A DNA stretch of 64,000 nucleotides, taken from positions 7,536,045 to 7,600,044 of the forward strand of contig JACTAT010000040.1 of NCBI GenBank assembly GCA_014526335.1, read 5' to 3'. Positions within the stretch are counted from its first letter, which is position 1. The number at the start of each line of letters is the position of its first letter. Position numbers and translations under genes: made by a program. This stretch comes from Chrysaora quinquecirrha (taxonomy: Eukaryota; Cnidaria; Scyphozoa; Semaeostomeae; Pelagiidae). The notes under the pieces are model-generated. The model saw nothing but the letters and a program-made list of their open reading frames with translations, had not been told where the DNA came from and ran no database searches. Shown one piece after another: positions 18,270 through 40,100 of this stretch.

Positions 18270-21200
18270 TCACATAAGTTTAGTTCCATCCCATGTTCCA
18301 AGAGTCGAGTGATAAATATGGTAAAAATCAGGCAATCTTTGATGTACTAATTCCAAATTCCCTAACATGACTCTGTCTACAAATTCCCAATCTTCGCCAC
18401 CCCATTTGTAACTGAACATTTCTTCGTTCATTCCTGTGAAAGTAATTGAAACACTTCTTACACCTATTTTTCACCTTGAATATGCTCACGCAATGTTAAG
18501 CTGTGGCTAAACTCTTAAACTAAGTGGCATGTCGCGCGTGACATTGATTCAGCGTGTCTCCCAGGGTGGCCAAACATGCGAGTGCCAAGCAAGCAACGTG
18601 AAGAAAACTCCCAGAAACGTTTTCATGCCTCTCGCTACAAATTCTGTTGCGCGCTACAGAGTTCTGAGTTGGCTAAACTGGGACACATCGAAGGAACATT
18701 TCACCCGCCACATTTTGGCGCGAGACATGTCTCCTAGTTTAGCCATGCCTTTTAGGCATCTTGCACCTGGGTGGCTAAACATTCGAGTGACGAGCGAGCA
18801 ACATGTCCCTCGAGTCGCGGAGATAAGAAATGTGTCTGTTGTCTGCCAGAAAAATTTTCGTGTCTCTCGCTACTTATTTTGTCGCGCGCTAAAAGATTCC
18901 GAGGTGGCTAAACTGGAAAATTTAAATGTCGCGCGCGACGTTTTTCCTTGTTTGCTTTCGCATTTTTAAAATCAGCGTTTTGGTTAATTTCAGGGCGAAT
19001 GCAATTCCAAGCATTAGCTTTAGGGTTCGGCTAAGGGTAGTGTTAAGGTTAATTAATCGTTGTTATAGCGTTACAGTCACTGCTTGAGTTTCACTTGGGT
19101 TAGGGCAAATCTCGATGAATTTTGACAAACTGTTAGTTAAAAGCGGTAGCTAGGTTACCTCCGATTCTTAGCCAATCGCTTTTGTAGAGTGACATCATTC
19201 CATAACCAATATCCATCCATATTGAAGTTGTAATGTTCGTATATTCTGGATGCTGACCGCACTGAAGACGCATTAATATTGGACAGTAAGTCATTTTCCC
19301 TTGAATCGTATGCTAAAAATTAAAATAACAATATCACATTTTCACATCACCGAATATCGGGTGAATAACATACTAGAAATCGCTAAGAATAACGAAACAC
19401 GGGTTCGATGTCTTTTTATGTACCCTATGCCGAGGGGCACTTTACACCACGAAAAAGCGCACGAGATTCCTATTTAAATAAAGGATTCTTACAAGATTCC
19501 CACGAAAACAACAGAGATTCCAGTTGAGGGTGTGCAATATTCCAAGGGTTGAATCGCCCCTCGCTCTATTAAGTTTTTGGCCGGTGGGGTTAGAGCTAGG
19601 ACAATATATCCATTCAGATAAGGTCCCAAATTGGTTAAGATATGCCTGCCTGCCCCGAGAGGGCTAGGGTTTAAAGTGCCCCAATACAAACACTAGCTTA
19701 CTTTTCTTGCTTGGTCGAAGATGTGATCTGGTATCTGCAGCTGTAAATCCATCACAAAAACAATGCTATCATTATTAGGTATTCTTCTAACTCCTTCATT
19801 CAGGGCTCTAGCTTTTGAGAAATTCCCTGACATTCGAATAAATGTGTAATTCAATCTACTAGATTTGATCATCTCCTCCACATCGACATCTGTGCTGCTA
19901 AAATCAATCAATATCAAATGCAGATGCTTATCATGTGTACGATCTATCACCGTCTCTATTGAGTTGATCAGATATCGAACCCAAGGTCTTTGATTCTTTA
20001 TTGCGCATACCATATACACAGTTACGTCTTTTCTCCAGTTACTATAGTCACGAGGCAAGCATAATGGCTGGTCCGCTGATGGTTTGAGGAAATAGTCACT
20101 AAATCTATATATTTTGCCATCATTTAGGTCCTCCATGTCGAGTTCCACAAAATAGCGTTTTCCATTTGTCTGTTCGTTGTTTTCTTCTACATGAACTATG
20201 TGTTTCAGTTTGTATTTGCTGAAAAAATAAGACATAAGTAAATCTAAATACTCATTTAATGCAATTGTGTGGAGTTCAGGGGAAACTGTCGCCAGGGCCA
20301 GTAGTTTTTAGCATTGTTCCCATAGCTATGTCGCGAGGCGTCGGCGATAGCCGCCAACATGATCATCGCGGAATGACCATCTCCGACGCTTCACGTTCGC
20401 GACATATGAGAACCAGGTATTAGTGTTGGCGTTAGAGTTAGCGTTGGGTTCGTGTGTAGGGTAAGTGTCCGTTTATATTAGGGTTTGGGTTATTGTTGGA
20501 TTAGTGGTAGAGTTAGCGTTTTAAGTGTTAAAATAGTTAGTGTCAGGCGTAAGCGTTAGGCCTAAGTTTAGGTTACTGAGGGTTAGTTTTACCTTGGTTT
20601 TACGGATAATGTTAGTGTTAACAGAAGGGTAGTATTAGGGTTACTTTAGGGTTAAAGCTAGACTTAGTTTAGTTGTAGAAGTAAGGCTAGTAGAAATATG
20701 TTGCATGTCCTGGTTGCTTGCTTGTCACTCGCATGCATAGCCACCCTGGGAGACACGCCGAATACAATGTCGCAAACAACATGTCTCCTAATTTAGCCAC
20801 AGCTTTAGAGTTATATCCCCTCCTCTGTGGAAGGATGTTTGCTAAACGGCCCCCTGTTCCGTATCACTATGACCAGAATAAGTTATAGAATAGCTCTCTA
20901 GTTTCTGTTGATTTAGATTTTATCATTCTTACCCATCATTAGTCTTTTTTATGGCTTCAAACACTTCCTTTGCAATTTTCTCCGCTTTCTTTTTCTCTAG
21001 GATCCTTTCAAACAAATCCTTCCCTGGAAATTTCGTATTATCATCTGGGTATATCAAATCCCGTTGCACATACTGTTGGCCATAATATGTTTTCAATTTT
21101 TTCCTTTGAATAAATACGAAGGTTCATAGTCACACGACTTCAGCCCTGTCATGCACGTTTTGCCGTTTAGCGAGACTTTATCACCAAAATAAAGTCGCTT

Positions 21201-25181: not shown

Positions 25182-28100
25182 ATGTCTACCCACGTGATGT
25201 TATCCTACCAATGGGATAACCAGAATCTTGTCAAGAGTGTTTATGAAAGTTTGGTAAGCCGTGGGCTGCCAGCATGGATGGATATCGAAGGCGGAATGTC
25301 AGGAAACATCAATGATAGGTAAAAAATATAGTTACTTTTAGTTATAATCCTATCATTTACATAGAGTTACATATAGTTACATTTATTGTATTGTAAAATC
25401 AATAGACTTTTTCAAAGGGGTCTGGGTCGGCGCAACATTTTTCAGGAAGATGGCGGTCGTCTTGAGTAAGGGAATCCTCTCTGCACGCAACAACAAGGGT
25501 TGCGGTCGCTTTAAGAGAGGTAGTTCAGTAATTTTGCTTTAAATTCGCGAATATTGAAAGGCAAAGAGAGAAAAGGAATCTGTGACAAAAAATGTTGAAA
25601 ACTTCTGCGGAAATTCAGGAAACAAGGTGCAAGTAAATAAAAAAGGAAAATACACGATTAAACGCTTCCTGGAGCAGATAACCTGGGACTTGCATACTTT
25701 CTTTCAAGTTTACTCCAATAAACATGGATTTGAAGCAAAACTTGTTGCACTATCTCTCCTGACGCGACTCTGCAATTCAGGTCTTTGCAAGCTTTGTAGC
25801 TTATTATAGCGAAATAAAGCAAGGTTTATTCTGTTCTATTTCAGCATGGCATATGGAGTTGACAATGCAGTAGTTGTTGTGCCGTTTATGACTCAAAAAT
25901 ATTTGGTGAATTTTTAACTCATTTCGTCTTTATTCATTTCTGATTTACTTGCTTTAGAGGATTGATTTAATCGAGGATGTTCCACAGAAAGTATAACATG
26001 ATATGATATGATATGATATGATATATATTTCTTTTATGTTAGTTACAACAAATAGTGATATACACTAATTCATACTAACATTAAGCAACCATAGGAATTG
26101 CATTGATCAACTCATTTAGTGCAAAAGGAGCACTCGCATTTTTTAGCGAGGAACCAAGTTTTGATCAAATTTTTAAACTGTTTAGTGTTACTCGCCGTTT
26201 TGATTTCATTAGGAAGGAATTCCATATTTTTGGCCCTTGATAACATAAGGACTTAATGCCAAAGCCTGTGGTTCTAACTTTTGGTATTTCAAGAAGATTT
26301 GTGCTCCGTAGATTGTGGTCTAGTTTTTTAGGTAAAAAATAGTCCTTCATAAAAACAGGATTTAGGTTATTCAAAGTTTTGAATACCTCTAAAGCAAGGA
26401 GCCTTATCGACTGTATATGAATGGTGGTCTCCATTGAATCAGATAGTAGTTTTTCATACGTAGAAGTATAGTCAGAATATGCAAGTCGTAGTGCTCTCTC
26501 ATTTATCTTTTCTAGTTTGTCTTGGCTCCCTTTGGTGCATAACATCCAAATAAGTGGACAGTAATTAAAGTGGCATAAGATAAACGAGTTAATTATAATT
26601 TTCTCTCTTTTCCCCATGAACCTAGCTAAGCGTTTTAGAGAATTAAGTTGTTTTGCTGCTTTTTACAAATTTTATCAATATGGGCATCAAATTTTAAACT
26701 TTCATCTATCTCTATACCTAGCAGAGTTACATTAGTTTCGACTTTTATTTTAGATTCTCATTAATTTCAAAATGTTCTATGTTCTTGTTTTTATTTCCAA
26801 TAGTAATGGCTTGGAATTTAGAACCATTAGCAGTCATTTCGTTTGACTTAAACCATTCAAGACATTTATTGGTGTTTATTTTATCAAATTTATTAATTCT
26901 TCAGTGCTTGAGGTGGTCACTGTCAGTGTGTTGTCATCGGCAAAATTACAGAGAGACCCATCACTGAGGTTATAAAAGATATCATTTATAAAGGAGTTGA
27001 AGAGAAGAGGTCCTAGTATTGAACCTTGTGGGACACCTTGTCCTAATTCATCCCAAGAGCTATATTGTCCTTTTACTTTTACTCTTTGCTTTCTATCTGA
27101 CAAATAATTCTGGATGAATAAGAGTGAATTTTCTTTTATCCCATAAGCATGTAGTTTTGCAAGTAGAAGATTCTTTGGGAGACAATCAAAAGCTTTTGAT
27201 AGATCCATTAGAATCGCCCCTATATGTGCATTTTGCTCTAGTCCTTTTCTCCAGTTTTCTATTAATCTGAAAAGTGCATGTTCGGATGAAAATGCTTTCT
27301 GTACGCACATAAATATGGAGAAAATTTACCTTGGAGAAAAGGGAAAGCTGAAGTTCTATAACTTTTTCAAAAACTTTAGAGAATGTAGTAAGTAGACTGA
27401 TTGGCCTGTAATTTTCTTTGTTAAATGGATCCTTTTCTTGTACACTGGTGTGACTATTGCCTTTTTAAAGAATTAGGAATGTACCTTGCGAAATACATTT
27501 GTTAATTATATCAAGTAAAGGTTTAAGGATAATATCTACAGAGATTTTTAGAAATTTGGCATTTATCATATCATGACCCATCGCTTTTTATGATTAAGAT
27601 CAAGAATAATTTGCTTAAGCACTGGTGCTGGAACTGATAGGAAATTGAAAATTGATTCGTCTTGTAAATTAAGTTTTATTCTCCCAATACTAGGATGGTT
27701 CTCGAAGCCCTTGATGATTTCATCAATTGTCGGGTAGCTCCCAGCGTTCTTATTAGCTGTAGTGCTGGTTTGGCTAATGCTGACAAAATGTTTATTCATA
27801 ATTTCTGCAACAGATTGAGGGTTACTGACAAGACTATCGTTTTCAGATATTGTAATTTCAGAATCAGTGTGGCCTTTGCCGAAGAAGTAGGGTTTCAACT
27901 TCTTCCAAAATGTTTTGGAGTCAAGTGTGCCGTTTTGACAAATCTTGGTAAAGTAATCAGATTTCAGATGTTGACGAAGATTTGCACAGTGGTTTCTTTG
28001 CTTTTAAATCTTTCATAATTAACAGTAGTTTTGATTTGTTATAGGCATTTTTAAATTTAGTTCTTAGCATTATTGCTTTTCTATGTACCTTACTGAGGGG

Positions 28101-31100
28101 TTTATTATTTGCCCTAACTATTTTGGATTTTAATGGTGCGTGATAATTAACTATGCTATCGAACAAATCTTGAAAGTATTCGAATGCCTGATTGCCATCA
28201 TGAATGTATTGGCAAAGATAAAATGGTGTTTCTGAAAGATCTTTGCAGAAGGCATCCTCATTAAAGTTTTTTAAATCTCTGTAGCGAATTATATTAGGAT
28301 GGTGTTTGGGAATTGAAGATTTGCAAGTAGTAAGAATTAGCTTATGGAAGTCACTTAAAGAGGTTTCAATAGTTTTAGTATTTTTAAAATTATGTTTCCG
28401 GTTGGTAAGGATTACGTCAATTGATGACGGATTACAATTTGGTTTGTAACAAGTTGGCTCTTTGATGAGATTTGTGAGCCCAAGAGTAGAACAAATAGTT
28501 TTAAGGCTAGGATCGGTTGGAGTTAGATTCAGATCACCAATTATTATAAAATTATCATATTGTGAGGAACATTTATCAATCAATTTAATTATAGAATTTC
28601 TGAAAATTTTATTATCCGCATTTGGTGGATTGTATGCAGCAATGATGACCCATTTTTCTTTTCGTAGATTTAGTTCAAAGCATATATTTTCTATTTCTTC
28701 ATCTTCAAATTTGTCAGTTCTTCTGCTTTTGAAGGGTTCCTTGATGTAAACAAGGAGACCACCACCATGTGCATTTCTATCAGCACGATAAGGAGCCTTG
28801 TAACCAGGTATTAAAATTGTTCAGTTGCAAAGGAATCATCAAGTTTAGTTTCACTGATGATAATGCAGTCAAAAGAGCTCACTGTAATTAAATATTTGAG
28901 CTCACAAAATTTGTTTCTAATGCTATTTATGTTTAGGTGTGCAAGAATAGGGTTTTTTGGATTTTTGAAACGTGCCTCTTTTAGCTCTTTGTAACTAGTT
29001 GTGTCCCAATTCTTACTCTTATCAGGTGTGTGGTCTAGTAGCCGTCTCCCATTAAGTCATGCTAAATGACAAGTTTTAATGATAGTTATACCAGAGAGTA
29101 CAATGCTGCATTTAGGAGAATACTTCTGAATTTCTTTAGTCACCTCATGCAATTCTTCAGCAATTTGCTGTGGACTCTCGGTTGTGTTCATGATGTCGTT
29201 TACGCCACAATGCAAAACAATCATGTCAGGGTTCTTTGCAAGGCTAGGTTGAATATAGTGGATTAACTCCTTTACTTTCATGCCTCCAATACTAACTTTG
29301 TTTACCAAGGAACGAGGGATTTTGCAAGCTTATGTGGTAGAACATGTTTGATAATTGAATCTCCAATTATGACAATATGCTTTTTGCTCTGCAGATTTGC
29401 ATTTTGGTAGGAAGATTTGGGTTGGTGGCTTGTTGAGGATTTTGTGTTTGATTTGATGTTTGTTGTCTTTGTGCTTGGGTGTTGTTTGGCCTGGATGAAT
29501 TTGTGAATCTGTTGTTTTGGTTATTTGATGGTACCTTGGGAATGATTGCAGTTTTTGGCTTTGTTTGGTCAGTAAGTGGTAATTTGAAAGGACTGATAAA
29601 GTTGGAAGGATTTTCAGGCAAGTGTTGTAAATGGGGATGGTATAATTTAAGATTCAAGATCCAAGATCCAAGATCCAAGATCCCAGATATTAAGATCCCA
29701 GATATTAAGATCCCAGATATTAAGATCCCAGATATTAAGATCCCAGATATTAAGATCCCAGATATTAAGATCCCAGATATTAAGATCCCAGATATTAAGA
29801 TCCCAGATATTAAGATCCCAGATATTAAGATCCCAGATATTAAGATCCCAGATATTAAGATCCCAGATATTAAGATCCCAGATATTAAGATCCCAGATAT
29901 TAAGATCCCAGATATTAAGATCCCAGATATTAAGATCCCAGATATTAAGATCCCAGATATTAAGATCCAATACGTTTTTTATCTCTGAACATCAAAACAT
30001 TACACATAACGTCAATGGGATTTGAAGTTCACCAAAAGGAGGCTTTAAGTTTCCCGCGCTTTTTGCCTCTGACTGACCGCAGACAACAGATGGACGGCAT
30101 GGTCATGGAAAGGGAAGAAAAAGTAAGTTGGTTCGTTATTATCAAATTACTCGTTCCATTGCTTTACAATAAAGAAGTATTGTTTGGGGACGTGTTTGTT
30201 TTTCGAGTAAGAACATTTTTGTTCACTGGCTTGTTTTTATCGACTTTGAGACTAAAATTATAGTTATGTCATTTCACTTCTTACTCAGATTGCCAAAACT
30301 TTATTTAGAGCAATTCTGTCTAAATGTTGGATCTATACACTGCGTGATTTCCTAATAACGGATTTAATTCTTCAGCATTAGCAGTTTCGTGCTTTGCTGT
30401 TATTTTTTAATGGCTGTATTAGGAAAGTCTTCTGAAAGATTAGGAAAGTCTTCTGAAAGATTTTCTTCATTGAGGTTACATAAACTGCTAGGCCTAGGCA
30501 TCTAAACTGTTGGGTAAATGACAGACTTTTGTAGGTGATACCTGCATGATTGACAGTTACAAAATAAGGTGAATGATCTGTTATTTGACTGCTATTTACA
30601 GTTTCATTATATCTGACGTTAGAAAAGATATTATCAGTAGATGTGGATGAATTTTCTGATATTTGTGATTTGATTTGAGTTTCATTTATGAATCTTATCA
30701 GTTAAGCTACTTAAGTCTCTTTCATTTCAAGGGAAGGAAAGGAATTAGTTTCTGTTACAGATGGTTTTTGTATGAGCCTAGCTTATATTTCTTTAATGTC
30801 TCAAGGTATCCTTTAAGGGTATTTATCCCTTTCAACTCTCAAGGCTGGGAGTTCCATGGTTTTGCCCCAAGGATCTACAATAGTGAAGTACCACAGGATT
30901 GTGTGTGATAATAGACTGCATGCTGAATTGAAGGATTCTGGTTATTACAAAAAATTAATGGACTCAAGCAGGAACAAGGCAAAACCACGAAAAATAAGAC
31001 TACACCTTTTTTATATGGAGCACCTTTATAAGGAACTTGAGGCTTAAAATCCCCAAAAGATTAGGGACTTTTAAGGAACTGCTGAGGCTCGGATGAAAAA

Positions 31101-34100
31101 CTAGTAAGAATAATTTTTTTAAGAACAAGACGATTTGTGCAAAAAATAGCAGAATAACAATGTATTTCCCATCATTCTTCCAAAAAAAACTCCATTTGTA
31201 TTTTTTAGAATTAGAAAATGAAGCAAGTTTATATGAATTTGCTGTAAAAATTAGTATTCTCATTAGTATTAGTATCTCACAAAAAGGAACAGCATAAGAA
31301 AATTCAGCCTCATTTTGTTGAAAATTAAGGAACTCTAGCCTCAACTCAGAGTTAAGGTTCCTTATAAAAAAACGTGTGTATGTGCTGAATATTATGCTGT
31401 GGCATCCTTAACAGGCATTGTCACAGCAATGGCAATGAGACATTCTTCAGCCCACCCAGTAACATATGGTTTTCACAGTTTTAATTTCTTTGGGTCTCAA
31501 GGTGTTGAATAGTTTGCAAAAGGAGATCAAATATTTGGAATCAACAGAGTGTCCTGAAAAGCATGTGCGCTGTTTCAGTGGCTGCTGGCTCAGTTTTGTG
31601 ATGTTCATAATTGCGATGAACAGCAGAAACATTTTCAGGCATACTAAACCCTATTTCACATGGCATATTTTTTAGTTGCCTTCACGTGGGGCACTTTTGG
31701 CCCCCTTAATTTTCTCAGTACATGTTACAGCTATAGTAACCAAAACTTGGTATAAAGTACCAAGACCTCGCAGAGATTCAAAATATAGCTTTATATTTTG
31801 ATTTCCGAATGACACATTGCTAGGCAACAGGTTTTTGGTTTATGTTGGTTAATGTAGTATTTATGCAGTATTTATGTAGTTATCTAACTCTTGAGTAGCT
31901 CAGAAGGTCTTGATATCATAGGGTAACAACATTTAAGCAATATTTTATAATTTTCTACACATTTTGCCAAATTCTGCTATATAATTACGTTTTTGTCATA
32001 AAACACTAAGTATACTGGAGATCAAAGCACATTATTCTTGTGAAGCAAGCAATTGATATACCATTATCCATTATTCGTGCTCCCTGTTGTCTTTTCTACA
32101 AATTTTCAATTTAATACAAATTTTCGAAATTTTAACTGTTTTCTTTACATTTATGAGGTCATCAAAATGTATGACGTCATAGTTATCAAAATTATTGAAT
32201 TGGAAATAATGTGGAATGGAGAAACAAGCTTCTGATAGCAGAGGTACACAAGCAATTCATAGGCTGATAAGAATATTCATAATTCTATCATTTTTCGCAG
32301 AAATTGACATGAGGAATGGCCTTTAAAGTCCCAACACTGTTACCTGCAAGAGCAAGTAACCAATGGGTCTTTGCTCCAGACCTACCAACTTTCAATTGGA
32401 AGGATCTTAAGAATAAAGATATCATTGGACAGGGTAGTTTTGGGGTAGTATTCACAGCAGAGTATAACAGCGAAGTAATCGTTGTTAAGAAACTTCTCGG
32501 TGAAAATGATCATGAAAGAAAGCGATTTGTAAAGGAAGCTAGATTTCTGCACAATCTTCAAAGTGACTTTACTGTGAAATTTCTAGGACTGTCATCAAAT
32601 CCAATGAGCATGATGCTTGAGTACGAGTTCTTTGATTTTACCATATTTGGAAATGACAAACAAGTGACTTCACTTAAGGGTCTCATGACAAGTCTACATG
32701 AAGACTTTAGTTTTGAAGGGTTTCATACGCTGCCCCTAACAGCAGCTTGTCAAATTACTACAGCATTGGAGTACTTACATAACTTGCGTATTGCACATAG
32801 GGATTTAAAAACGCTTAATGTCACTGTTTCCAATAAGCATTACAGTTCCCTGAAGGATGGCAAAAAAATCGAAATGGAGTGGGGGAAATGTCCTGTGGTT
32901 TGCAAGCTAATTGATTTCGGGGAAAGTAGGTCCGAGATTCTACAGACTAACACCATTTTAAATTCGCACACGCAGAATTTAGATAGAGGAACTTTGGTAT
33001 ATATGGCACCAGAACTACTGGACCGGGGTACCATGCAAAAGTGTTGCCAAGAACACTTGCTTCGAGCTGATATTTGGAGCTTGGGTCTTATATTTTTCAT
33101 TCTGGTTTCACCCGATTTATCATTTCCTTACGAAAATGATCTTGCTGGTGCTGCCCCTGAACTGTGGCATGATATTGTGAAAAACAAGATAAAGAGTAAA
33201 TTGCAGCCAACAGCCAGCCCAAGATACATAAATCTACGAGATTCCATCTGGAGACCTATAAGGGAGGCACAGGATATGTGTCTTTGCTTCCACCCAGAAG
33301 ACAGAGCTGATGTCAGAGCTATTGGACGGTTTTTCAGAAGTAAAGAAGGGGAGCAACTAGAACCTGGTACTGAGTTGGCCCAAGGGAGCAACTTCACAGA
33401 CAGTAAAGCGCGTCCAGGTCTAGAATTGGATCAGACAGATCAACTCGGACATTCACTGAAATCTTGTCGTAATGAGTCAGAATCCATGGTTGCAGTGTCA
33501 TCAAGCAATGTTTCACATGAGGGAAGGGCTTATTCAGTTGTAAGCGAAATTAAAGCTCCGGATCAACCAGACGTTTTTGAAGTTTTGGACAATCTGTCAA
33601 TTCAAGAAGTGTCCCCAGTCGCCATTGAAGAAAAGGGATCACTGCTCAACAGCAGTAAGTGTGGCTATGCTCAGAAAGAAACGGTTGTGACTGAAGAAAG
33701 TAAAGAACTTGATACAGAGATAGACGACAGCGATTGCAAGATTATGAGTTCATTTGTTACAATGCCAAGTTCCTTGAAAGAACACAGAATTGACGGTGGA
33801 CATGTTACACTTCATCCGGAAACAAATGTTAATAATTCCAAAACTGAGACACCAGATATATGGAAAGGAGCCTCCATCAATTCTGATCTTAGCCCCGTTG
33901 TCTTCTTTGATGAATATCCTGTTCTACAATCAGGTTTGAAGAAGCGAATCACAGCTTACGATGCAGCAAGAGTTTTGCTAAATCCGGTAATCAATCCGAA
34001 GTTAATTTGCCAGTCAGTTCCATGCCGAGTGCAACGAAACTTGATGTTCATTGTCAATTTGCATGCACTCGACAATAACCTTGATATCACAGCAGACGAC

Positions 34101-37100
34101 AACGGAGCAACAAGAGGTGGCCAGGGCAGAAAGTCGCACGTGTATTGCAAAACAAGTGAAACAGCGATTGAATCCTTGAAAATTCAGATTGACATAGTTG
34201 ACAAGGAGGAAGATGAGGATTATTTTGTTCTAACAAAATACAATAGCACCTATGAGTCTGCGAAGGATTTCCACAGATGCATAGTTAAGTTACAGCCAAG
34301 TAGCGGTAGTGAGAAATTCTTCCAATACTGCATCATTCAGTACATCTTCGATGGAGAAGAACATCCATTTGAAGTGTTACCTCACAGAAATTCCAGGCGA
34401 CGAAATGCATGCTATAAGCAGACAGCCAAAAGCGTGCGGGAAAACCTTGTTGACGCCTTGTCATTCTGTAGCCCAAAAGAAGCTCTTTTTAATGTTTCTA
34501 ACTCTGCTGGCGGGTATTTGTCCGCAAAGTCTTCAGCATCTTTGCCAAGGAATTACAGACAAGCAGTTAATCTCAAGGCAGGCAACAAGGTCATATCAGA
34601 CCAAGGCTGCCATAGCACAAAGAGTGTACTTGCAGACTTGATGGAGCAATGCAAAAGGACAATAAACAACCACTCAAAGGCCTTCATATGGAAAGTTGAG
34701 GCTGCTCCCGAGCCTATGTGTATAATAGGCACAGAGAAATCTTTTTCTGAGCTTATTCGTTCATGTTGCACTGGTCCTCAGGGAGAGCACTCTGTACTAT
34801 GCATCGATCCCACATTTGACTTGGGAGAGTTTGCCTTCACTCCCACGTCATTCAGATCACAAGCCATTCTAAAAAGAGCAACCGGTAAAAGTGCTGTTTT
34901 CATGGGTCCTGCTCTGATCCACTACCGCAAGAAATTCAGTAGCTACCACTATTTTACCACATCCATGGTAAGCATAGATCCAAGATTACATTCTTTAAGA
35001 TGTTATGGAACAGACGGCGAAGAGAATCTCATCCAAGCTTGCGAAAAGACCTGGGCTTTTGCTGATTCTTTGAGATGTTTCCTTCACAGCAAGAAGAATT
35101 GCAAAAGTCACCTTTGTTCTTACCTCCCAAATGCAGTTGCCGACACATTTGTCAAAGAAATTTTTGGAGAGAAAATGGGTACACATTACGAAGAAGGCCT
35201 ATGTGATCTTGAGGATGCAGATACATTTGAGGCAGCTGTCAACTCACTGCGGGAAAATTGGATTGAAAGGGAAACACCGTATCGTGGTACATCATGCAGT
35301 GTGCCATATTTTCACGATTGGTTCAAGAATAATGTCACATCCTATATGAGGACTAGTATGCTGAAAGATGTTAGAGCCCGCAATGGCATAGATTCAATTT
35401 TCACGACCAACAGCAGTGAAAGCATAAATGCAGCTTTGAAGCGGAAAACAAATTACAAGGCTTTGGAGTTACAAGAATTTGTCAATACGATGAAAGAATT
35501 CTATGAAAACCAAGACGAGACAGTCCGTTCATCCTTTGTAGGGGATAGTGATCATATTCTAGCAGAAGCTTTCAAGGAATTTGAAATTGGTGAGTCGTAC
35601 TACAGGCTCTCAGCTGACCAACGTATGAAGCACGAACAAAAGTTTTATGCAAAATTATCTGCAGAGATCGCAAAGCCAAAGGCTATGCTCCCAAAAGCAC
35701 TTGTACTTCAAGGTACTAAAAGTCATCAAATTTGTGGTCTTGATCCCAAGCACTCCTTCAACTTGTTACAAAAGGCAGCTAGCATCATTGACAAGGGTTT
35801 AATTATTCCGTCATTCAGCAAAGGATCTTATCACGTAGCAAGTGGAAGTGCAGAAGAGAAGCCCCATTTTGTAAAGCGCATAAAGGCAGGTGAATACAAG
35901 TGTGATCCGGATGACCCAAGAAACGGATGCATAGCCTATAAGAAATCAAAGATTTGTTCACATGTTGTTGCTGCCTCAAAGGTCACTGGCGATTTTGACC
36001 AGTTGGTTGCAAAATTTGCAACCAAGAAAGACAAGCAACCCAATCTAGATAATTTAGCCAAGTATGGAATGCCCTCTGGTGCAGGAAAGAAGCCGTCTGA
36101 GATGAGGAAAAGAAGAGCAGTGCTACCTGTGGAGACAATAACAAAAGCTTCTGATAGATTCCAAAGCCAAGCCCCTTTGAAGGTAAAAATAGTGCATAGA
36201 AATGGCACTCATATTGCGTTTTCCAGCCAAGAAAAGGAGTACAACTTGGAGTTACTCGAGGACCACCCTCAAGTAAATGTTTGTGCAGGCTGTCGTGTTA
36301 AGTTTGCCAGAATGCCTAGTGGTAAACCATATCCACCACCATATGATTTGATTATCAGCCATCCTGAGCATGGATCGAAGAGGAATGCTGCTGGAGTGCT
36401 GCAAGTCTTCAACAAAATAAGCAAGCGGTACTACCACACCAACATTGCTTGTGTGCGAAATGGGAACAATGGATTAAACAGAGCCTTTTCTGCTGAAGCT
36501 CTAAGTTATGACAGAATATTGCAAAGACTAACAGATGAGCACAAAGAAGCTATGAAAAAGAATCTATTTTTGGACATTTTGTAAGTTATCTTTATTGATA
36601 TTTTACAAGTTTTACCCATTGACATTTAGTTTCAGACTCATTCGATTTGATGAAATGGATCAAGGGATGAGGAGCGAATTTCCAATAATCACTTATGATT
36701 CCAGTAAAGAGGGGAGGGCGATACGTCTTTGTCAATTACACTCTGATTCTAAATTTCGTGCAAGATTTGTTAAAAATCAAGTATTTGAGGCCTGTGACAA
36801 GGTAGGGCATTAGAAAAATGACTAAAATAATATGCAATACAACGATTGAAAGAAAAGTGTGTTTGTTCTTTAAAGATATAATTAGAAGTAAAGCTAAAGT
36901 TTTACTTTCAAAATCCAGTCATTTTTACTTTCATTGCATTGAAAGCAAGTTATGAAACATTATAAAAGCAATTTTTGCAAGACAAGTTTCGAAACATCTA
37001 GAAAAATTGAAGAAATCCCTAAATAAATCTTTATAAATCTCTATGAACCCCATAAATTTGATAAGAAAAGGCAAAGAGATTTAGAGATCCTATAAATCCC

Positions 37101-40100
37101 GTACGCCATTTTTTTGAAGTGAGAAACCCGGCGAATTTTATTGTTCAAGGTTGCTTATAGCAATAAGTGTAGTGTAAGAGATAAACCCTCTTTCATTAAA
37201 TGAAAAATAATGTCCTGAGACTGTTTTAATGATAGATAACGTTAGTTGTAAGTTCACTTATGATGCAGTTTTTACTGAACTTTTTAAAGGTATGTGTTGT
37301 CTTATGTTTGGTTTTGTTTGCAAACATGCAGAATATGAGCAAATGATGTTGTGTTTATTTCTTTGTTTTTCTTTGCATTTACCCTCAAAGTTATATAATT
37401 GTTATATGTTGTACGTTTTGAAGGTTGAACATGGGGTGGCGACGTTCCTTCTACATAAGTACAATGAAAAAGTACAACGATATCTGGGATCTTAACCCTT
37501 TACTTACCACACATAGAAATACTTGTCATTTCACAACCAAATCTCCACATTAGACAGATATATGCATAAATATGACAAAACAAGTGAAAAAATTCCCCTG
37601 GGGGGCGAGGCCAAATTTTAATTATTTTTTGACCCCCAGAGGACAATGCCTCATAGCAGCCGCCCCCTTAATGACATCAATTTAGTTTGTTGACAAACAG
37701 CACGGCCCAGTGAAACTATGAAAGAAAAGTGCTCACTTGCTTGTACTGAATTAGCTATTTGAAAATAAATCAAGATTTTATACTTTCCACTTAGGCCCAA
37801 ATTTCCCCTTGGGCAAAAAAATCCCAAACAAGTTCGACACAAATGCTGATTTTCTTCCTGAAGCTACAGCATTGGCCTAAATCTTGGTACTATTCGATTC
37901 CTCATGAAGTACTCTATGTAAGTAATACTGCATGAATTGAAAGTCTCCAATGAGAGGCAGAGGCAATATGGCCGACAAAACTATTTGTTGCAAATTTGCA
38001 ACACTGGTAAGTAAAGGGTTAATATCTGGGATCTTAATATCTGGGATCTTAATATCTGGGATCTTAATATCTGGGATCTTAATATCTGGGATCTTAAAAT
38101 CTGGGATCTTAAAATCTGGGATCTTAATATCTGGGATCTTAATATCTGGGATCTTAATATCTGGGATCTTAATATCTGGGATCTTAATATCTGGGATCTT
38201 GGATCTTGGATCTTGGATCTTGAATCTTAAATTATACCATCCCGTTGTAAATGATGGTATCGGTTTGGGTGATAGAACATTTGAATATTATGTGGCTGTG
38301 TAAATTGAAGTTGTGGGGCATTTTGGTTTGGCTCATATGGGCTTTTTTGGAAACGATAAGTATCAGGTCTTCGTTGAAATGTTTGCCATGGTACATTGTT
38401 TTGATGTTGATTTTTGATGCAATTATTTTCTTCTTTTAAGCACTTAATTTGAGAAATAAGGTCCTGATTTTTCTCTTTTAACTGTAGATTTTCTGTCTTG
38501 ATATTTGCAATTTCATCTTTCATGGCATTTTCTTGTGGTTTCGATATTTTCATTATTTCTTTCTTCATTTCATTTATTTCATCCATAATTGGCTTCAAAG
38601 CAAGATTCAGTTGTATTGGACAAAGACTGGTCTGTATCATATTTCCATTGTAGATTTCATCATCTTTGTGTATTTCTACTTGTTCAATTGCACTCGGAAG
38701 ATTGCTTGTCTGTGATTCGCTTTTAGAACTTGAACTGCAAAGCTTTTGATGTTCAGTTATAGTTGGCAAAATACCAGATTTGAATTCATCTATGCCAGTT
38801 CCAGTTATTACAACTGTGGCAGATGGCACATGGATATTTATATTGACCCATTCATCTTCTGTCTTAGTTATTTCTATCTCTATTTCATCAATATCTTCTT
38901 CATCATCATAACTCAATAGGTCAGTCCATGATATACCATAGTTCTAACGAGGACGTTTTACTGACTCTGCTTGTATTAAGCCCTGGCAAAGCGGTCAAAC
39001 CCGTAACATTTGAGATTTGCTTTACAAGCAATCTTAAATCGTTAGGCCATGTCACAAAGCATTGGTTTGCAAGCATATTCACTCAGGATTGGTTTTAAAA
39101 AGCAAATTTATGCTTGTCTCAAGCTGAAAATGTTTGACAAACAACGTTTCGTGACATTAAACGGTCAAAGATTCTAGACAGAAGAACGTATGTTAACGTG
39201 GAACAAATATAAGGTACTGTGGCTGTAAACGTGCAGCTATTTAAAAGTTTGTCATGCAAATATAATTTTGCTGGTGCAATATTAGAGGCATTAGCCTGAT
39301 AACCAGCCCATTATTCTAAGGAAATAAGTGCACACTTTTTGCACACTTCCTTAGAATAATGGGCTGGTTATCAGGCTAGAGAGGCATAAGACAACGGCAG
39401 TTTGGGCTTCTGATTCTTAATCGATATTTTCATTAATTCATTTCTAGGCCTGGCACAAACTTTGAGAAAAGTGTTGAATCTCTTACAAAAGAACTAATGC
39501 ACGTTAGTGGTGGCAAAATCGAACTGTCACCTCCACAGATTGCCAATGTCGAAGATCAACTTGTCAGCAAACCTGGAAGAGCATTCAGGCATAAACTAAC
39601 TGGAAAATTCCTCGCTGAATCGGGTTGGTGACGAAATTTTGTTATTTTAGAAGGATTGCATGATGTTAGCAGTTGTATTGATCATTGATCCCCTCTCATG
39701 ATTAAGATGTCATTGTGAGCTTTCCCCCTCTCAAATGCTCGTTGTTTTAGATGCTTTCTTCTTATAAAGCAAAAAACTCTTAACCGAATAAACAGTTAAA
39801 AAGGGGCTCCAAAACTCTGGCGCACCGTTGTGGCCCCAAAACTTGGGTATCAAACATGTTTAAGCATGGTTGACTAATACTTAAGACGCAAGTCTTTGGA
39901 AAAAGGAGTTTACAATTTTGACACCGTCTACAGTCGTTTAGGTTTCTTTCTAAGCCTTCATCGTCGTTTTTCGCCGACTTCGCCCTGATGTTTTCAAATA
40001 GATCTATTCGCCTTACGCGCATTGCTTTATCCGACATCCAACAAATCTGACGTAAATTCTGTTTATCTCCAGGTGAAGTGAAGTTCCACGCAGCTAGTGG

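Follow-up and report, generated by a model that had tools for sequence, protein, structure and literature searches.

We analysed a 64,000-nucleotide stretch of Chrysaora quinquecirrha DNA (the window; contig JACTAT010000040.1, positions 7,536,045 to 7,600,044) in which a complete protein kinase is fused, in one reading frame of 1422 aa, to the N terminus of a Mutator-type transposase. The frame lies in a cut-and-paste element with defined ends and a target-site duplication; other insertions in the genome share these ends, the fusion belongs to a family, and the catalytic residues of the kinase are conserved. Our preferred reading, to which we give about an even chance, is that of an autonomous DNA transposon of the Mutator superfamily (a "kinase-MULE", from Mutator-like element) whose transposase carries an N-terminal Ser/Thr-type kinase acting on host proteins for the benefit of transposition.

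The same fusion is found in other records, namely P0001 (1416 aa), P0003 (1344 aa) and the fragment P0002 (80% identical); P0004 is truncated inside the kinase. The frame of the window is organised as follows.

32316..36584, plus strand: fusion reading frame, 1422 aa, uninterrupted single frame
32409..33335, plus strand: protein kinase domain, residues 32-340 (Pfam match; alignment of 35 group kinases)
33336..33905, plus strand: Ser/Thr-rich linker, residues 341-530, quickly evolving (12-16% identity to P0001, P0003 and P0004)
33906..34655, plus strand: N-terminal part of the transposase, residues 531-780, mostly beta-strand (structure model; 46-63% identity to P0001, P0003 and P0004)
34656..35705, plus strand: RNase H-like DDE core, residues 781-1130, with Asp831, Asp900 and Glu1035
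35706..36581, plus strand: C-terminal part with a SWIM-like finger (C1196, C1205, C1214, H1216), from reading of the sequence
36636..36813, plus strand: possible last exon, weak (intron 36581-36635); P0001 and P0003 stop short of it

A preliminary description of this DNA had already taken the complete kinase for the N terminus of a Mutator-type transposase, and the Pfam match, the catalytic residues and the DDE core bear this out. The catalytic set of the kinase is complete, comprising the Gly loop, Lys58, Glu74, the HRD Asp163, Asn168, the DFG Asp200 and the APE motif. Its best matches in a PDB sequence search were CTR1 (twice), then the BDNF/NT-3 receptor and then TAK1, with TNNI3K, ASK1, LIMK1 and JAK2 lower down. 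The DDE transposase has a fold of the IS256/Mutator (IS256/MURA) type, with a conserved RCxxH placed between the second Asp and the Glu of the core, and a SWIM domain exceeded the Pfam cut-off solely in the relative P0011. The start of the protein, M-x-F-x-x-P, recurs in P0002 and P0003. Identity between P0001 and the window protein is 55% in the kinase, 16% in the linker, 63% in the DDE part and 60% at the C terminus, and the corresponding values for P0003 are 42, 12, 58 and 52%; for P0002 the kinase is 86% and the linker 55% identical. Taking P0001, P0003 and P0004 together, the kinase ranges over 42-55%, the DDE part over 58-63% and the linker over 12-16%.

Ends, insertion site and further copies of the element

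The element is delimited by long terminal inverted repeats and sits inside a frame that it interrupts.

29634-38243: whole element, 8610 bp, with matched terminal repeats and a 10-bp target duplication
29624..29633: target-site duplication, left, GTTGTAAATG, same as 38244-38253
38244..38253: target-site duplication, right, GTTGTAAATG, same as the left copy
29634..29858, plus strand: left terminal inverted repeat, starting GGGATGGTATAATTTAAGATTCAAGATCC, 225 nt, 99% complementary to 38019-38243
38019..38243, minus strand: right terminal inverted repeat, containing minisatellite 38019-38200
29367..29623, minus strand: interrupted frame, downstream half, flank of the insertion site
38254..38916, minus strand: interrupted frame, upstream half (Pfam CENP-H 2.1e-7 over a coiled-coil-like stretch)

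With the element and a single duplication copy taken out, the flanks join as a minus-strand open stretch of more than 300 codons. The inverted repeats, the 10-bp duplication and this restored empty site place the fusion inside a real transposon, as had been proposed. Mutator target-site duplications are about 9-11 bp long; those found here are 10 bp in the window and 9 bp in a second copy (L016, see below) and in eight of ten further stretches. Downstream of the interrupted frame, on the same strand, lies an endonuclease-like frame (27957-28583; Exo_endo_phos_2 2.6e-4, below the cut-off), and with such a neighbour a long interspersed nuclear element would fit as the insertion target. The left repeat continues into a minisatellite (29677-29968) whose 15-bp unit, AAGATCCCAGATATT, is present at both ends of the element, in 19.5 copies on the left and 12.1 copies on the right (38019-38200). 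It may be a binding array of the transposase. A variant form of the same minisatellite was seen in a short element, L040.

We searched the genome (328 Mb, 740 contigs) scoring the best candidates only, so that all genome totals are lower bounds. The second copy, L016, is 97% identical in DNA across 7.8 kb, has the same ends, contains the kinase and is flanked by its own 9-bp duplication, TTGTCGAAG; its frame is damaged by two stops and by frameshifts. The preliminary description had suggested looking in related genomes for the same fusion with matching terminal repeats. L016 has both within the same genome, and the fusion is found in other animals as well. The same copy bears on another explanation, a misassembly near 33300-33900 or two genes read as one, in favour of which nothing was found. 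No stop lies between the kinase and transposase parts, and the identical join is seen in L016, elsewhere in the genome, and in P0001, P0002 and P0003, leaving this explanation with a negligible chance. An isolated chimera or misassembly was rejected on the grounds of the second copy and the homologues.

The terminal 29-mer, with up to three mismatches, occurs at 164 places in the genome, versus 0 for the reversed pattern. Among 100 listed places, 35 neighbour pairs are convergent within 12 kb versus 3 divergent, and 30 of these 35 convergent pairs span less than 2 kb, which marks them as short relatives. Exact 9-bp duplications were present at seven of the ten end pairs fetched; L039, the eighth of the ten stretches, has an inner 828-bp pair with a 9-bp duplication, and none was found at the end pairs of L042 and L044. 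Since end pairs and duplications recur, elements with window-type ends have been mobilised many times. The interior DNA of the window element had no match in the ten stretches (E 1e-3), and two kinase queries gave weak matches, in L042 (E 0.005) and L038 (E 0.009). The window copy is the sole intact transposase with these ends found in the genome.

Two large stretches, L037 (8404 bp) and L038 (5703 bp), have 9-bp duplications. Neither gave a match to kinase or transposase at E 1e-3, and captured DNA may lie inside them. A degraded related kinase-transposase copy, L017 (C212:58000-67900), has other ends (GGGACTCCCTAATTCAAGATTC..., span 8425 bp) with additional inverted repeats inward, and an exact duplication was not found there. 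L018 is degraded too, and a search for terminal inverted repeats at L030 (exact 14-mers) gave no convincing pair in 13 kb. Elsewhere in the window, part of a gene resembling chondroitin N-acetylgalactosaminyltransferase lies at 19693-20235 (minus strand; Pfam CHGN 1.8e-5).

Related loci and the deubiquitinase-like domain

The kinase alone matches at least 126 places in the genome and the transposase part at least 65 loci (71 matches minus 6 extra pieces of listed loci, two on C192, one on C212 and three on C2). These 65 are not independent events, five of them being near-identical (the L010-L013, L015 type). At 45 of the 65 a same-strand kinase lies no more than 12 kb upstream, two of them with gaps of 7.9 and 9.4 kb, and the mirror control (downstream, or on the opposite strand on either side) gave 2 of 65. 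This pairing tells against a domesticated host kinase gene that recruited a transposase, with no transposon involved. Such a gene might be suspected from the database relatives annotated as host kinases, e.g., TAO1 in Holothuria leucospilota, but the inverted repeats, the duplications at two sites, the restored empty site and the many short elements with the same ends also speak against it, and we consider it extremely unlikely. Along the transposase tree there are at least three switches between "kinase" and "none seen"; a single gain followed by losses would account for them, and so would repeated gains.

Kinase and transposase are joined in one chain in 28 proteins or frames, and in 22 the region between the two parts has viral tegument-like deubiquitinase (VTD) motifs. 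A fold search assigned this middle domain of the relatives to the VTD fold, and Q67, C94, D215 and H217 (P0014 numbering) are invariant across 13 aligned sequences. The local copies L021 and L026 have Glu-x-His in place of Asp-x-His, and in both the kinase and the transposase occupy separate open stretches, perhaps spliced together. For the protease part of L030 a PDB sequence search returned only 6x1g (E 0.36), and a later fold search indicated VTD. All six kinase-only loci that were lengthened, taken from 14 (five by their long open frames, one as the best-scoring), contain a VTD-like domain. The genome search with VTD gave 87 matches that merged into at least 74 loci. At 15 of the 74 no kinase was found upstream, and these may belong to other transposons such as Helentrons.

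Judging from these sequences, kinase, VTD and transposase in one polypeptide is the commoner plan of the group. The kinase is present without VTD in the window protein, P0001, P0002 and P0003. VTD motifs without a kinase appear in the protein census, whose kinase-bearing queries under-sample kinase-less relatives, in P0004 and P0014 alone, which start inside the kinase and were counted as fragments; P0016 and P0036 are without the kinase start, and P0006 and P0008 terminate inside the transposase. In the window protein the linker occupies the position of the VTD domain of the relatives and lacks both the Cys and the Asp-x-His motif as well as any Pfam match; in the genome-wide search neither the window element nor L016 contained a VTD match. 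The window lineage would most simply have come to be without VTD by loss. The preliminary description was incomplete in this respect: rather than a single capture, the fusion is one member of a large and diverse group.

Relatives extend to other animals. P0011, from the sea cucumber H. leucospilota (an echinoderm), has kinase, VTD and transposase and is annotated TAO1, and P0051, from the octocoral Paramuricea clavata, has the kinase and a partial transposase (26% over 253 residues, E 1e-14) and is named SPK-1. Kinase and VTD motifs only were found in P0037 of Apostichopus japonicus, and kinase and the Cys motif only in P0049 of the hydrozoan Clytia hemisphaerica. The kinases of P0038 and P0039 are 42-47% identical to those of P0045, P0046 and P0050, and the transposase parts align over at most 87 residues. 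In P0052 (1949 aa) one chain unites VTD motifs, DEAD and Helicase_C domains (RecQ-type), a MULE match that is weak (0.005) and a kinase that is more distant; because this kinase sits outside the clade of the other group kinases, it may have been captured separately. In public records P0011, P0003, P0006 and P0051 are labelled as host kinases (TAO1, serine/threonine kinase, mitogen-activated protein kinase, SPK-1). With such genes listed in this way, transposons may swell the kinase tallies of these genomes.

Conservation and possible role of the kinase

Lys, Glu, HRD Asp, Asn and DFG Asp are retained in all 35 group kinases compared, 24 of which come from transposase-bearing proteins and 11 from kinase-VTD proteins or frames without a transposase. 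Among relatives the kinase is 42-86% identical while the linker drops to 12-55%; in a nearer set (P0009, P0034, P0035) the values are 86-88% for the kinase, 82% for VTD, 67-75% for the linker and 88-92% for the transposase. Because its identity is kept where the linker diverges, the kinase looks selected. The kinase phylogeny proposed earlier, built with ten other kinases, gathers 34 of the 35 in one clade (100/99), with P0052 outside; the split of all 35 from the others, with only ten outside kinases, has a support of 71/53. Some trees were made without P0006, P0007 and P0016 (rearranged or incomplete models), and the kinase trees without the L026 and L032 halves.

Between the window and L016 the ratio of nonsynonymous to synonymous substitution (dN/dS) is 0.34 in the kinase (9 nonsynonymous, 7 synonymous; one-sided p 0.036), 0.62 in both the linker and the DDE part and 1.47 at the C terminus (whole frame, p 0.044). 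Such weak constraint would suit a captured host piece, useless and not yet decayed; gene-fragment capture is known for MULEs (accessible parts of PMC13317346), and some related loci have no kinase found (see below). Nevertheless, the catalytic set is kept in every group kinase, kinase identity tracks transposase identity over deep divergence while the linker drifts, and 34 of the 35 form a single clade, all of which makes a passenger very unlikely. A dead passenger was rejected, the 35 catalytic sets being intact.

In the reading that we prefer, the kinase would be active and serve transposition. The transposase would carry it to the nucleus and to the transposon ends, where it would phosphorylate host proteins (repair, chromatin or ubiquitin-pathway factors), with the outcome that excision and insertion succeed or that the transposase evades removal. 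The VTD domain, where present, would serve the same purpose by removing ubiquitin from the transposase or from its neighbours. A host target is favoured because kinases of one type are found on transposases that share little and because their usual partner is of a type that works in the ubiquitin pathway. Exchange of the kinase module among dissimilar transposases and the drift of the linker make a host target likelier than the linker.

Several observations weigh against this. No upstream kinase was found at 20 of the 65 related transposase loci, and five of these (L022-L025, L027), plus L020, have no kinase or VTD in 9.9 kb, so the kinase is not required by every relative. Copies lacking the kinase, which the preliminary description itself had named as a refuting observation, are thus seen among more distant relatives only, as loci with no upstream kinase found. 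The kinase remains tethered to the transposase in many members, and a purely host-directed effector would not need a tether. Fold matches do not show function, and the constraint between the window and L016 is too weak a signal to carry weight.

The covalent chain of the 28 proteins or frames would suit self-regulation, with phosphorylation of the transposase by its own kinase domain, either in cis or from one transpososome subunit to another, timing nuclear entry, end pairing or overproduction inhibition. Mos1 is a precedent for transposase control by phosphorylation: once PKA has phosphorylated its S170, paired-end complexes fail to assemble and nuclear transport is blocked (accessible parts of PMC3902898). 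The Ser-rich linker, to which the preliminary description pointed as the obvious substrate, fits this poorly, being the least conserved part (12-16%), having no SQ/TQ sites and being replaced by VTD in relatives. Moreover, transposases sharing the kinase type hardly align, which makes a conserved site on them unlikely, and L021 and L026 have their kinase and transposase in separate (perhaps spliced) open stretches. We regard self-regulation as a real but doubtful possibility.

The host-directed reading can be widened, tentatively and with a probability somewhat short of even, to an animal Mutator class. Its members would encode on the transposase a host-manipulation unit (the kinase, usually with a viral-tegument-type deubiquitinase) that is swapped between unlike backbones and targets host proteins at the transpososome, by analogy with viral kinases and tegument deubiquitinases; the window form would be the kinase alone. 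That relatives in other marine animals have the fusion too, often with a deubiquitinase-type enzyme added, suggests that such elements bring along their own means of manipulating the cell. If the kinase works, these transposons would, with VTD added, resemble small viruses in their toolkit. The system is directly testable, with one protein, defined ends, known catalytic residues and short non-autonomous elements as reporters.

Relation to known systems

The preliminary description knew of no comparable example, and our limited searches of the open-access literature, with subscription papers, Repbase reports and bioRxiv outside their scope, found no description of a kinase-transposase fusion. 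Nor was a kinase fused to a transposase found in the accessible parts of PMC9741609, PMC8277862, PMC13317346, PMC6431247 and PMC12062965. Protein kinases are among the domains that often co-occur with transposable element domains, the example given being kinase-reverse transcriptase fusions (PMC12062965, in part). Within the literature searched, the kinase, if it works, would represent a new route by which a DNA transposon controls its own activity or that of its host.

The element resembles the Mutator/IS256 type in its DDE core fold, RCxxH, SWIM-like C terminus, long inverted repeats and 9-10-bp duplications, but differs in the N-terminal kinase of its transposase, to which the relatives add VTD. 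VTD deubiquitinases occur mostly in Helentrons, and in several Cnidaria VTD domains are fused to other regions, including transposon-associated domains (accessible parts of PMC9741609); the word kinase has no occurrence in PMC9741609. The middle domain of our relatives is likewise a VTD fold with a Cys and Asp-x-His site inside a transposon protein, whereas Helentrons are rolling-circle elements with RepHel, and the window protein is without VTD. Plant MULEs with Ulp1 (Kaonashi/KIU, Vandal) have likewise captured and conserved an enzyme that belongs to a host modification pathway, but there it is a protease in a VANC-type accessory gene outside the transposase (accessible parts of PMC13317346). 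SETMAR, KRABINER and CSB-PGBD3 join a host domain and a transposase too; these are host genes, however, and the window fusion is the mobile element's own product (compare PMC12062965, in part). The nearest known systems are the VTD-carrying Helentrons and the Ulp1-carrying plant MULEs, and what is new here, as far as the searches go, is the kind of enzyme built into a Mutator element.

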